In this document: positions 9,071 to 23,697 of the stretch, in pieces
How positions within the stretch are numbered: position 1 is the stretch's first letter
Layout: each line of letters starts with the position of its first letter
Assembly (NCBI GenBank): GCA_903882745.1
Contig: CAIRYG010000010.1
Location: forward strand, 124,001 to 188,000
DNA: 64,000 bases
Direction: 5' to 3'
Origin: an uncultured Gemmatimonadota bacterium
GTDB lineage: Bacteria > Gemmatimonadota > Gemmatimonadetes > Gemmatimonadales > Gemmatimonadaceae
Position numbers and translations under genes: made by a program
The notes under the pieces: generated by a model
What the model saw: only the letters and a program-made list of their open reading frames with translations
Told to the model about the DNA's origin: nothing
The model's database searches: none

Positions 9071-9924
9071 CGCGGCGCTGGAATCAGCAGCCAGCTCAGC
9101 AGCGCGAACCCGAGCGGAATCGTGAAGATCAGCGAATCGATGCGATCGAGGACGCCACCATGACCGGGGATCAGCGTGGAACTGTCTTTCACGCCGGCTT
9201 CACGCTTGAGCATCGACTCCACCAAGTCGCCGATCTGCCCCCCTGCGCTCACCACAGCCCCAAACAACACGGCCCCCTGCAGCGACAACCCCAGCTGCGC
9301 CACCGGCGGCAACACGAAGCGCGTGTACAGGACGCTCACCGCGATCCCCACCACAAGACCGCCAACGGCGCCCGACACGGTCTTTCCTGGGCTCACCGAG
9401 GGCATCAGCTTGCGTCCGCCCACCGACTTCCCCACCGCAAACGCCCCACTGTCGGTCAGCCAGGTGACAATCAGGGGCAAGGCAACCAGCGCCGTGCCCG
9501 CCATCGCACCAATCGCGTACGGATGGTATCGCAGCCCGTAGGCAAAACTCAGCGCCCCGCCGGTGTAGAACACACCAAATAGCGTGCTCCCAAGGGCCTC
9601 CATCGGCTTGCCGGTGGAGCCACGTGTAAAGAGCGCAACGGTGAGGAGCTCCAAGAACAGCAGCATCCACACCGTGAGCGACGGTGTCCAGAGCCCGAGC
9701 GTGTTCGCATGCACCAGGAGCGGAAGCGCCGCACTGAGCACCACGCCATGCCCCCACAGCGGATCGCTGCCTGTTTCACTCACCATGCGGTAGAACTCAC
9801 GCGCGGCGAGCCCGCTCGCGACTGCAAGCATCCCCGCCAACGGAGCCCCGCCGAGAAACACGAGATACACCGCGAGCGGCGCGGCGATCACGGAGAAGAT
9901 GATCCGCTTGGCGAGTTCAGACAC
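9067..9924 (-). CDS. cdsA: Phosphatidate cytidylyltransferase
   Basis: The 285-residue integral membrane protein has about eight hydrophobic helices. It carries the CDS signature near the C-terminus (KREAGVKDSSTLIPGHGGVLDRIDSL). It makes CDP-diacylglycerol from CTP and phosphatidic acid for phospholipid synthesis. It sits between uppS and dxr as in many genomes and overlaps dxr by 4 nt. Confidence 0.96.
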   Translation of the reverse strand: MSELAKRIIFSVIAAPLAVYLVFLGGAPLAGMLAVASGLAAREFYRMVSETGSDPLWGHGVVLSAALPLLVHANTLGLWTPSLTVWMLLFLELLTVALFTRGSTGKPMEALGSTLFGVFYTGGALSFAYGLRYHPYAIGAMAGTALVALPLIVTWLTDSGAFAVGKSVGGRKLMPSVSPGKTVSGAVGGLVVGIAVSVLYTRFVLPPVAQLGLSLQGAVLFGAVVSAGGQIGDLVESMLKREAGVKDSSTLIPGHGGVLDRIDSLIFTIPLGFALLSWLLIPAPR

Positions 9925-16875: not shown

Positions 16876-18412
16876 CAGCGACGCAATCCCTCGCGCCGCG
16901 CACGTTCTGCCCATGCAGACACCGGAGCGGAGGCAGCGGGTGCAGGCGTGACCGCCGCGCCAGGCGCGCCAGCCAATGATCCACCCGCGCGTGCACGACG
17001 CTCCTGGTCGGCCAGCAGCGCCGCCGCAATCGCCGCGGTGCGGACCTGCTCCGGAGATGCCTGCGCCCCAACGATCGACGGCAGCCGGCGCTCAAGCCAC
17101 TGAATCTCAATGTCGCCGCGGCGGAACTCGTCGTCTTCCATGACGCGCAGATGAAACTCGCGCGAGCTCTCGACACCATCGACCACCAACTCTTCGAGCG
17201 CGCGATGCATGCGCGCCACCGCGTGGGCGCGGTCCTCGCCCCACACAATCAGCTTCGCGAGCATGGGATCGTAGGTCAGTCCGACATCGCTCCCCGTCTC
17301 GACACCAGAGTCCCAACGCACACCGGGGCCCGACGGGACATGCAAATACCGAATCCGCCCCGTGGACGGGAAGAATCCGTTTGAGGGATCCTCGGCCGTG
17401 ATCCGACACTCAATGGCCCATCCACGCGGCGCGGTGGGCGCGTCGAACGTGATGGCCTCGCCCGCGGCGATGCGCAGCTGCCACTGCACCAAGTCGATGC
17501 CCGTGACGAGTTCAGTGACGGGATGCTCCACCTGAATCCGGGTATTCATCTCGAGGAAATAGAACTCGCCGTGCGCATCCAGCAGGAATTCGCAGGTGCC
17601 GGCATTCACATAGCCCGCGGCCTTCGCGAACCGCACCGCGGCATCACCCATCCGCTTGCGGAGCTCCGGCGACACGGCAACGCTCGGCGCCTCTTCGATC
17701 ATCTTTTGGTGACGACGCTGGACCGAGCACTCGCGCTCGCCGAGCGAAATCACGGTCCCGTGCGCGTCGGCAAGAACTTGGATCTCAACGTGCCGCGGCC
17801 CTTCGATGTACTTCTCGACGTAGACGGCGTCGTCGCCGAAGGCATTGAGTGCCTCGCGCTTGGCCGAATCGAGCGCACCGGCAATCTCGTCGGCACTGCG
17901 CACGACACGCATGCCCTTTCCGCCACCGCCGGCAGCCGCCTTGAGCAGAACCGGATAGCCAAACTTCGCGGCCGTGGCGACTGCTTCTGCCGCGTCCCGC
18001 AGCGGCTCCGTCGTTCCAGGAACGATGGGCACATCGTGCGCCATCGCGAGCTGACGCGCGGCCGTCTTGCTGCCAGTGGCGCCGATCGCTTCTGCTGGCG
18101 GTCCGATCCAAATGAGTCCGGCATCCCGAACGGCGCGCGCAAACCACTCGCGCTCGGAGAGAAACCCATAGCCCGGGTGAATGGCATCGGCGCCGACACG
18201 CTTGGCGACCGCGATAATATTGTCGCCCTTCAGGTAGCTCTCGGAGGACGGCGCGGGGCCGATGTGTACCGCTTCATCAGCCTCACGCACGTGCGGGGCC
18301 GCCGCGTCGGCGTCCGAATAGACCGCGACGGAGGCGATTCCCATCTCACGACAGGCGCGGACCACACGCAGTGCGATCTCGCCACGATTAGCAATCAGGA
18401 CTTTGCGAAGCA

Positions 18413-18413
<1 letters not shown>
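16875..18413 (-). CDS. accC: Biotin carboxylase subunit of acyl-CoA carboxylase
   Basis: The 512-residue ATP-grasp enzyme carboxylates biotin using ATP and bicarbonate. It has the N-terminal MLRKVLIANRGEIALRVVRA, the ATP loop LKAAAGGGGKGMR, QRRHQKMIEEAPS and FLEMNTRIQVEHPVTE. Residues about 460-512 are an extra Ala/Arg-rich tail without a biotinyl domain, consistent with the separate carrier gene. Its start shares a base with the pccB stop. Confidence 0.96.
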
Positions 18414-19963
<1,550 letters not shown>

Positions 19964-20012: not shown

Positions 20013-21473
20013 TCAGGTCAGGTGCCGTACCAGGGCGTCACCGAGGGCCCCGACCCGCTCGCGTGGAAAGGCCCCCATCATGGCCGCCTGAATCCACCGA
20101 TGTTCGCGCATGTAGCCGCTTCGCCAGCCGAGCAGGAACCCTTCCGATTCGAGGCGCTCGCCGACCGTGATGAGTTCGCGATGCGCGGGGACGGCGAGCG
20201 TGGTGACCGCGGGCGTGGCGCACGCTTCGACAGCAACCGGGCGCAGCCCCGCACCGGTCAGCCGTGCGCGTAACTGCGCGGCAGCGTCCGCGATGGCACG
20301 ATACCGCGCCGGCCAATCGGTGTCGGTGAGCGAGCCCGCGAGAGCGCCCACGAGCGGCGACGATCCCGTGAAGGGGACACCGTCGCCGTTGAGGTACAAG
20401 CCGAGGTCGAGATAGCGCGGCAGAAACTCAGGCGCGATGGCCGGGATGTCCTGCGTGAGGACGAGCGCGAGCCCGGCAATCGCGCCGAGGCCCTTGGCAC
20501 TGCTCGCGGTGGCCAGTGCGACGCCGCGGAGGTCGAGCGGCACGGTGCCAATACTCGAGACGGTATCGAGCGCGAGCCTCGCACCGTACCGCTCCGCGAC
20601 CTCGCGCAGCATCGGCAGCGAGTGCAGCACGCCCGTGGAGGTCTCGCAGTGCACGGCCCACAACCACCGAGCGCCACTTGCACGCATAGCACGGTCAATC
20701 TCTGCGGCGGTTGGCGATTCACCCCACGCCTTCTCGAGCACCGTGTGGGGAATGCGATGGCGCCGTGCGTGGTCGACCAATCGGCCGCCAAACTCGCCGT
20801 CGTTAATCACGAGCACATGCTCGCCGGATACAGCGATCTGACCGGCGACCATATCATTCGCGAGCGTGCCCGATCCGCAGGCGAGGGCCACGTGCCGTGC
20901 CTGCGTCATCTTGCACAGGGCCTCGCGCACCGTTGCGAGATCTTTGGCAAACATGGCGGCCCGATGCGATTCTGGGGGCCGCGTGATGCGCTCGCGTACC
21001 GACGGCAAGAGACCGACGGGTCCGGGCTGAAAGGACGCCGGCTCGCTCTGGCGCTCCGGTGCAAGCAGGCGGCCGACCTGCGCGTGGAGCTGCTCTGCCT
21101 TTGCGTACATCGGCTGATACTCTGCGCCGGGTGTGCCAACGAGGGGACCAAACGCAGTGAATCCCATGTGCTCGTACAGGCGCAACTGTCGCGTGGTGCC
21201 AGAGATCACCGCCATGTCGTAGCCCTCAGCGAGCGCGATCCCCATCGCGGTTCTGAGGAGTCGCATAAGGGTCGCGGTGCCTCGATACGCTTTCTCCACC
21301 GCGAGAAGCCGGAGCTCCATCGGGCGGCGGCCAGGCGGGAGATAGCTGTCGATGTTCGGGAGCTTGCTGTCCAACGAGAAGGGGCGCACGAGCCGCATCG
21401 CGATCATCGCGACGATCCGGTCGCCATCGCGCCCCACGACGTACCGATTCTCCGACTCCCACTTGTCGATCAA
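20013..21473 (-). CDS. GNAT acetyltransferase / class V aminotransferase fusion, downstream open part
   Basis: This 486-residue frame starts at a TTG. Residues 1-125 are most of a GNAT domain ([18 protein letters not shown], the acetyl-CoA loop region, and LRLYEHMGF). Residues about 150-486 are a fold-type I class V aminotransferase, with [16 protein letters not shown] aspartate in [10 protein letters not shown] (D303) and Schiff-base lysine in TASSAKGLG (K327). Such transaminases use alanine, serine, glyoxylate or phosphonoacetaldehyde; the substrate here is unknown. The true N-terminus lies upstream in the same frame but is cut off by a TAA codon at 21525-21527, so this is either a pseudogene, a translated fragment or an assembly error. 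A terminator follows. Confidence 0.75.
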
Positions 21474-21617
21474 TCGCCGTTCGGGATTCGCGGGATGCTG
21501 CGGGATTTCCTCGACGAACGTCTTTTAGTTGAGCCGACTAATCTGATCGAGGTCGTCCGGTCCTTCGGGCGTGCCGAAGGTGAGCGCGGTGCGCCCTCTC
21601 GTAGGGACGAGGGTCAT
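21474..21617 (-). other. In-frame N-terminal part of the GNAT-aminotransferase fusion, interrupted by TAA
   Basis: An ATG at 21617 with GGGAG eight nt upstream opens 30 codons ending QISRLN. Then comes TAA (21525-21527), and the same frame goes on KTFVEEIPQHPANPERR into the downstream frame. The residues on both sides read as one continuous GNAT N-terminus, where the stop replaces what is probably a Tyr codon (TAC/TAT). Restoring it gives a 534-residue protein. Confidence 0.75.
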
Positions 21618-21808: not shown

Positions 21809-23608
21809 CTACTCGGCGTCAGCGATCTCGTCGAGGTTGACCGGAACTTCCGCGTTGTCGCCGTCTTCGCTGAAGACCTTGCTTGGCGTCTCAGGACGCG
21901 GCGGCTGGTCTTCTGGGATCGACGTCACGGCCAGCACGATGCGGCGGTGGATCGGATCAACCTCGAGCACCTTCAGCTCCAGGTTCATGCCTTCCCACGC
22001 GATATCGGCCGGGCTCGCGATCGGCGCATTGCTCGTGTTGAGCTGCGAGATCGGGACGAAGCCTTCGATGTCGTTGCCGACATCGGCGACCACGCCCTTC
22101 TCCATCAGGCGGACGACCTTGCCCTTCAGGTCGGTCCCAACCGGATAGTTCTCGCCGATCTTGAGCCACGGATCCTCTTCCGCCTGCTTGAGGCCGAGGG
22201 AGATACGCTTGTTGTCGCCGTCGATGTTCAGGATCACCACATCAACTTCGTCTCCCTTCTTCACAACTTCCGACGGATGCTGGACGCGCTTGGTCCAGGA
22301 CATATCGGAGATGTGGATCAGGCCGTCGATGCCCGGCTCGATCTCGACGAAGGCGCCGAAGCTGGTGAGGTTCCGAACCTTGCCGCGAATGCGCGTGCCG
22401 ACCGGGTACTTCTGCGGCAGCACCATCCACGGATCCTGCTCGGTCTGCTTCATGCCGAGCGAGATCTTCTCTTCGTTCGGATCGACCTTGAGCACCACGG
22501 CGTCGATCGCCTCGCCGATGGAGACGAGCTTCGACGGGTGACGGACGTTACGCGTCCAGCTCATCTCGCTGATGTGCACGAGGCCTTCGATGCCCGGCTC
22601 GAGCTCGATGAAGGCGCCGTAGTTCGTGATGCTGACGACCTTGCCCGCGACGCGCGTGCCGACCGGGTACTTGGCGGCGACGTCCTTCCACGGGTAGCTC
22701 TGGAGCTGCTTGAGGCCGAGCGAGATGCGCTCGCGCTCCCAATCGATGTCCAGGACCTTGATCTCGAGCTCCATGCCGATCTGGACCATCTCGCTCGGAT
22801 GCGAGATACGGCCCCACGACATGTCGGTGATGTGGAGCAGGCCGTCGACGCCGCCGAGGTCGATGAACGCCCCGAAGTCGGTGATGTTCTTGACGACGCC
22901 CTTCCGCACCTGGTCCTTCTCGAGCTCCTTCATGAGCTTCTCACGCTTGCCGGCGCGCTCGGTCTCGAGGATCACGCGGCGCGAGACGACGATGTTGCGG
23001 CGACGCTTGTTGAGCTTGATGATCTTGAACTCGTAGCGCTGGCCGAGGAGTTCGTCGATGTTCGGCACGCGACGGAGCGCGATCTGCGAACCCGGGAGGA
23101 ACGCATCGACGCCCATGAGGTCGACGACGACGCCGCCCTTGATCTTCTTGACGAGCGTGCCTTCCACCGGCTGGTCGGACTCGTACGCGACGCGGATACG
23201 CTCCCACACGCGCATGAAATCGGCCTTCTTCTTGGACAGGACGACGCTGCCTTCCTGGTCTTCGAGGTGCTCGAGCAGGACTTCAACTTCGTCACCGACC
23301 TTGAGGTCGGGCATGTCCTTGAACTCTTCGAGCGGGATCGTGCCTTCGGACTTAAATCCGATGTCGAGCACGACCATGTTCTCGCGAATTTCCAGCACAA
23401 TCGACTTTACGATCTCCCCTTCTTCAATGGAAGCAAGGGTGCCGTTGTACATGTCCATCATCTGCTCGTACTCGTCGGACGTGTACTCGTCCTCTTCGTA
23501 GAGCTCGGGGCGGCGATTGGAGAGAGGGCGCAACTGCGCCTTCTGGAGATCGCGCTTCTCGCGAGCGGACAGCAAGCTCACGGGCGCGTCAAGCGTTTCA
23601 TCAGTCAT
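21809..23608 (-). CDS. rpsA: 30S ribosomal protein S1
   Basis: The 599-residue protein starts MTDETLDAPVSLLSAREKRD, with AGGA just upstream. An in-frame extension to 23671 is ignored. It contains a run of S1 RNA-binding domains. The middle and C-terminal ones are strongly alike (KVVSITNYGAFIELEPGIEGLVHISEMSW, split here into GAFIELEPGIEGLVHISE and its repeats). It unwinds and recruits mRNA to the 30S subunit. It has its own promoter right after cmk. Confidence 0.96.
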   Translation of the reverse strand: MTDETLDAPVSLLSAREKRDLQKAQLRPLSNRRPELYEEDEYTSDEYEQMMDMYNGTLASIEEGEIVKSIVLEIRENMVVLDIGFKSEGTIPLEEFKDMPDLKVGDEVEVLLEHLEDQEGSVVLSKKKADFMRVWERIRVAYESDQPVEGTLVKKIKGGVVVDLMGVDAFLPGSQIALRRVPNIDELLGQRYEFKIIKLNKRRRNIVVSRRVILETERAGKREKLMKELEKDQVRKGVVKNITDFGAFIDLGGVDGLLHITDMSWGRISHPSEMVQIGMELEIKVLDIDWERERISLGLKQLQSYPWKDVAAKYPVGTRVAGKVVSITNYGAFIELEPGIEGLVHISEMSWTRNVRHPSKLVSIGEAIDAVVLKVDPNEEKISLGMKQTEQDPWMVLPQKYPVGTRIRGKVRNLTSFGAFVEIEPGIDGLIHISDMSWTKRVQHPSEVVKKGDEVDVVILNIDGDNKRISLGLKQAEEDPWLKIGENYPVGTDLKGKVVRLMEKGVVADVGNDIEGFVPISQLNTSNAPIASPADIAWEGMNLELKVLEVDPIHRRIVLAVTSIPEDQPPRPETPSKVFSEDGDNAEVPVNLDEIADAE

Positions 23609-23669
23609 GGGTCCTAAGTCGCGGAGGGGATCGGCTCGCCGCGACGGCGAGGATACGGGGTAAACGAAC

Positions 23670-23697
23670 AAGGCCCCGGCGGATTTACCGGAGCCTT
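23670..23697 (-). other. Hairpin at the 5' end of the rpsA transcript
   Basis: AAGGCTCCGG and CCGGGGCCTT on the minus strand form a 10-bp stem with one mismatch and an 8-nt loop. It begins within a few nt of the predicted rpsA start site. It could protect the 5' end, mediate S1 feedback, or end cmk transcription. Confidence 0.5.

Follow-up and report, generated by a model that had tools for sequence, protein, structure and literature searches.

A single stop codon interrupts an otherwise open fusion gene

Given that one gene in the 64-kb stretch of Gemmatimonadota DNA analysed here (the window) is cut by a stop codon close to its start, we asked what this stop signifies and what the uninterrupted gene would encode. 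The frame spans 534 codons on the minus strand, and its sole lesion is a TAA at codon 31 (Table 1). From the ATG at 21617-21615, which has GGGAG upstream (predicted energy of pairing to the 16S tail, -6.6 kcal/mol), 30 sense codons lead to the TAA, after which 503 codons stay open in the same frame up to the stop at 20015-20013. An earlier interpretation made from the letters alone (the sequence-only reading) had described this course from ATG 21617 and its GGGAG through 30 codons, the TAA and GNAT sequence into a class V aminotransferase, all of which can be seen directly in the DNA. It had also held that both sides of the stop form one domain, and relatives are indeed co-linear across the TAA. 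An acyl-CoA carboxylase gene pair, named by eye from the translations, lies downstream of the fusion gene.

Table 1. Coordinates of the interrupted gene, its parts and its neighbours in the window (G014 is the close relative described below)
Feature	Position	Strand	Evidence
Broken fusion gene: FeeM-like GNAT acyltransferase plus class V aminotransferase, 534 codons, one internal TAA	20013..21617	-	
In-frame TAA, codon 31, helix alpha-1 of GNAT domain	21525..21527	-	Homologue alignment, AlphaFold2 model
30-codon open frame ahead of the stop (strand beta-1, start of alpha-1), well preserved	21528..21617	-	
GNAT / FeeM-like acyltransferase domain, codons 1-190	21048..21617	-	PF21926, fold matches
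Class V aminotransferase domain, codons 191-534	20016..21047	-	PF00266; TIGR03301 below cut-off; 7e7g match
Longest ORF remaining downstream of the stop: TTG start, 486 aa, without beta-1/alpha-1, weak ribosome site	20013..21473	-	
rpsA (ribosomal protein S1), upstream neighbour	21809..23671	-	Named by eye from S1 repeats; syntenic in G014
Acyl-CoA carboxylase carboxyltransferase subunit, next gene, 49 bp downstream	18413..19963	-	Named by eye from translation

A search of the host genome (3.06 Mb in 14 contigs, completeness 100, contamination 1.33) for a second intact copy of the fusion gene found none, so the gene is single copy. Screening the 64 kb for in-frame stops that lie between stretches of coding sequence returned 14 candidates elsewhere; the six screen regions that were read held ordinary gene ends, non-coding frames or the codon-31 TAA itself, with no other broken gene recognised among them. 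On this evidence, the window does not appear to be generally damaged.

The interrupted gene belongs to a widespread fusion family

The window protein matches PF21926 (FeeM; E 1.9e-8) as well as PF00583 (GNAT) and PF00266 (Aminotran_5). With an X at the stop, it scores 34.7 bits against PF21926, above the gathering cut-off of 27, which places it in the FeeM family, and PF21926 is likewise matched in 63 of 63 family members scanned. Scores against the 2-aminoethylphosphonate transaminase model TIGR03301 (141 bits vs a cut-off of 360.8) and against TIGR02326 (89.4 vs 400.8 bits) fall below the thresholds for assignment. With 62 homologues as input, AlphaFold2 modelled the read-through frame confidently (pLDDT 93). 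The best PDB sequence match of the aminotransferase half is the AEP transaminase 7e7g (E 3e-43), and a Foldseek comparison of this half with the same structure (E 4e-27) identifies a class V fold; Lys375, which is invariant across 63 sequences, is the predicted PLP lysine. When modelled alone, the GNAT half matched the folds of SACOL1063 (a GNAT protein), FeeM (2g0b) and acyl-homoserine-lactone synthases.

Identical to 62 members at 39-50% of aligned positions and with the same domain order, the window gene belongs to a fusion family whose hallmark is a co-linear FeeM-like GNAT and class V aminotransferase of about 530 residues, with the motif LNYxTFVEEIPQH extending over both sides of the stop. 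Across the 84,980 species genomes scanned, at least 215 loci encode relatives, a breadth that contradicts the earlier description of the architecture as uncommon; the best 80 of these loci were retained. Relatives occur in Gemmatimonadota, Verrucomicrobiota, Planctomycetota, Acidobacteriota, Bacillota and other phyla, and of 179 Gemmatimonadaceae genomes 26 have the fusion. We rejected the idea that the two halves are normally separate proteins, since fusion is the rule and the halves lie in different frames only in two genomes, G110 (C26, L138/L136) and G061 (C117, L139/L137), each time broken at the linker that joins the domains, reflecting natural fission or a frameshift.

The stop falls in a near-invariant motif and is absent from relatives

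We compared codon 31 with the 99 relatives aligned across it, a count in which a few loci represent the same genome found by two tools. The residue is Tyr in 85, His in 13 and Phe in one, and none of the 99 has a stop. The proposal in the sequence-only reading that the TAA replaces a probable Tyr codon thus agrees with most homologues, though His is also used, including by the nearest intact members of the same genus. Codon 31 sits within LNYxTFVEEIPQH, in which Leu29, Asn30, Thr33, Phe34, Glu37, Ile38, Pro39, Gln40 and His41 are almost invariant. The co-linearity of relatives across the stop, together with its position inside this motif, argues that the arrangement is not due to chance.

A sense codon in relatives had been put forward in advance as the mark of an assembly error. 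Such codons are what relatives carry, but these are other species, so the comparison does not separate a mutation from an error. A one-base sequencing or assembly error, with the real gene intact, would need only a single substitution and would account for the absence of decay elsewhere in the gene and for the sense codon in all relatives aligned there. Single substitutions are, however, rare as consensus errors, and the good quality of the assembly, the lack of another recognised broken gene in the regions read from the 64-kb screen, and an own nonsense codon in the fusion gene of a same-genus genome (G001, below) all weigh against this explanation, which we consider improbable.

The lack of a conserved stop bears on programmed readthrough or codon reassignment, either of which would yield a full-length protein and would fit the strong constraint before and after the TAA. 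The sequence-only reading had listed stop readthrough as an option. The stop in G001 is a TAG and occupies a different codon position; TAA terminates other genes in the window, and in the screen regions read no other internal TAA was seen. Recoding is accordingly very improbable, and we rejected it on the grounds that the stop is not conserved and that no other internal stop was recognised in the window.

Strong constraint in the comparison with the closest relative

The sole close relative, G014, is a LacPavin MAG with 95% protein identity. For the part downstream of the lesion, comparison of the window with G014 gave dN 0.024, dS 0.29 and omega 0.08 (bootstrap 0.05-0.13), close to the values for six neighbouring genes (omega 0.012-0.069), such that any inactivation would have to be recent. 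Both parts are constrained, with a dN of 0.014 in the GNAT part after codon 49 and 0.028 in the aminotransferase part. Because omega is low, purifying selection must have held for nearly all of the window–G014 divergence, and as a rough bound the unconstrained time would be at most about a tenth of that path. Consistent with this, when neutral drift was simulated over the entire window branch, about 4.8 further stops were expected, and none was seen (P(none) 0.017). Around the stop, 9 of 10 near-invariant positions are retained and 17-22 of 36 residues agree with homologues from the genus, a level similar to that elsewhere in the gene; the one odd change in this segment is Pro17, at a position that is Ala in all 99 relatives. 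Collectively, the preserved segment, the constraint and the absence of extra stops indicate that the stop is recent, or is unreal, or that protein is still made somehow.

Apparent lesions in the gene are seen in two further genomes. The G014 assembly lacks about 113 bp of it, including codons ~12-49; in the same 19 kb of scaffold, accC shows a 38-bp loss beside a run of N as well as an 87-bp loss, and the carboxyltransferase gene has a 44-bp imperfect tandem duplication. The N-terminal deletion is therefore probably an assembly artefact, and we rejected it as an independent inactivation given these other artefact-like indels. The assembly-like indels in conserved genes of this locus (L032, G014:C58) lie opposite window positions 17354, 18294, 18857 and 21473. 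Gene losses inferred from the LacPavin MAG scaffold are thus unsafe. The second genome, G001, belongs to the same genus in a separate tree clade and has an in-frame TAG at the Gln of EEIPQH (L034, about 9796-9799, minus strand); this codon is independent of the window TAA and also lies early in the gene.

A recent nonsense mutation is the likely explanation

In our assessment the TAA is likely a recent, lineage-specific nonsense mutation, making the gene either a pseudogene or an inactive allele that is still segregating. The frame is interrupted relative to intact homologues, and we favour recent inactivation because there is one TAA, no second lesion, no stop in 99 relatives and strong constraint. 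A recent pseudogene had been among the options of the sequence-only reading and now leads them. A point mutation would have created the TAA within helix alpha-1 of the acyltransferase domain, translation that begins at the usual ATG would stop after 30 residues, and neither domain would be made in useful amount. The single copy, the presence of the gene in 5 of 18 genomes of the genus and the independent TAG in G001 also count towards gene loss.

What counts against a pseudogene is that both nonsense codons occur within the opening tenth of the gene, a position also compatible with a shortened protein made from an internal start, and that the G014 assembly likewise has no N-terminus, though its scaffold is unreliable. 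Initiation at TTG 21473 or GTG 21437 would produce an N-terminally shortened but useful protein in which the aminotransferase is intact and the acyltransferase crippled or altered. The 486-aa ORF downstream of the stop could accommodate such a product, the GNAT part after codon 49 is as constrained as the aminotransferase, and the domains are perhaps separable, judging from the split halves in G061 and G110; the early position of the two stops points the same way, but two cases prove little, and the G014 deletion that removes codons ~12-49 is one among several scaffold artefacts. A shortened protein would, however, lose beta-1 and alpha-1 and with them LNYxTFVEEIPQH, the best-conserved acyltransferase motif, and the N-terminal segment is undecayed in the window. 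In addition, a ribosome site is almost absent in front of TTG 21473 (-1.1 vs -6.6 kcal/mol), and that of GTG 21437 lies within protein codons and inside beta-2. We regard a shortened protein as unlikely, and a recent nonsense mutation remains the preferred reading. Taken by itself, the stop codon would then represent routine recent gene loss.

Relatives of the fusion gene are frequently linked to a PlsY-like gene

The parent family matters more than the stop, as it spans many phyla, in the majority of genomes examined stands directly behind a PlsY-type gene and has no description that we could find. Our literature searches returned no account of the fusion and no paper combining FeeM, an aminotransferase and PlsY, and a search on aminolipids gave nothing relevant; a review of GNAT-type aminolipid synthases (PMC11631085) mentions FeeM, without any aminotransferase.

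Among 77 relatives with enough upstream sequence (drawn from L038-L117), 58 have a PlsY-like gene immediately upstream on the same strand, often overlapping the fusion gene by 4 bp (e.g. L102:5295-5873 and L090:5179-5865); this arrangement recurs across many phyla. The single linked copy that was checked is a PF02660 match. Where the two genes are linked, eight genomes have two PlsY genes and a ninth has five, compared with one each in the window genome and in L039, which lacks the linkage; among these genomes the linked PlsY is usually an additional copy. No PlsY gene stands beside the window gene, and many of the loci lacking this neighbour are from Gemmatimonadota.

Two further features were observed around relatives. 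In Bacillaceae, the fusion is succeeded by a gene for a membrane sulfatase-family protein, judged LtaS-like by eye (L089:7487-9343, L090:7473-9305, L101, L104 and L110), which is possibly a third component of the cassette. The same-genus loci L005, L004 and L007 share, upstream of the fusion gene, a stretch resembling CGTCG..TGACGTAT, a possible promoter or operator; inspection by eye revealed no such stretch upstream of the window gene.

The predicted folds and the PlsY neighbour in relatives suggest a role in lipid synthesis, namely an undescribed N-acyl lipid step. Most likely, the C-terminal half would transaminate a small carbonyl compound to an amine, the N-terminal half would N-acylate this amine from acyl-ACP or acyl-CoA to give a lipid or lipid precursor, and the special PlsY would add an acyl group. 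We tentatively propose, as a possibility that we hold to be somewhat doubtful in its full form, an undescribed bifunctional enzyme that would make an amine by transamination (e.g. of a phosphorylated C3 carbonyl compound), N-acylate it and, together with a dedicated second PlsY, produce an amide-containing phospholipid-like lipid, in a pathway that some Gemmatimonas would be losing through independent nonsense mutations. If such a new class of N-acyl lipids were real, many environmental bacteria would possess an overlooked membrane or signalling lipid. The amino-phosphonate step proposed from the sequence traces back to a distant similarity of the aminotransferase half to PhnW/AepZ (141 bits vs a cut-off of 361). 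Neither this step nor the alternative amino-sugar step found direct support; in the few neighbourhoods that were read, genes of neither kind stood out, and the recurrent neighbour is a PlsY-type acyltransferase.

Comparison with known systems

The interrupted gene resembles ordinary bacterial nonsense pseudogenes in its single early stop, single copy, intact remainder and intact relatives, and differs solely in that the function of the parent gene is unstudied. The N-terminal domain shares its fold with the N-acyl amino acid synthase FeeM (PF21926, 2g0b) and the AHL synthases BjaI (5w8a) and LasI (1ro5), but with only 14-21% identity in the fold alignments, and here the domain is joined to an aminotransferase and, in the window, interrupted. 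Similarly, the aminotransferase half has the fold of PhnW/AepZ and alanine-glyoxylate aminotransferase (AGXT; 7e7g, 1vjo, 1m32) with the lysine at the expected place, yet the window protein lies far below the equivalog cut-offs, and no phosphonate chemistry is evident in the neighbourhoods read. PntC-AEPT (6pd1) likewise joins an AEPT-type class V aminotransferase to an N-terminal transferase domain; there, however, the partner is a cytidylyltransferase (nucleotidyltransferase) rather than a GNAT, and identity is 14-18%. The aminolipid synthases OlsB/GlsB/OlsF with their O-acyltransferase (PMC11631085) also pair GNAT-type N-acylation with a second acyltransferase, which in those systems is PlsC-like, whereas the relatives of the fusion have a PlsY-like enzyme (PF02660) and carry the aminotransferase fused to the GNAT.
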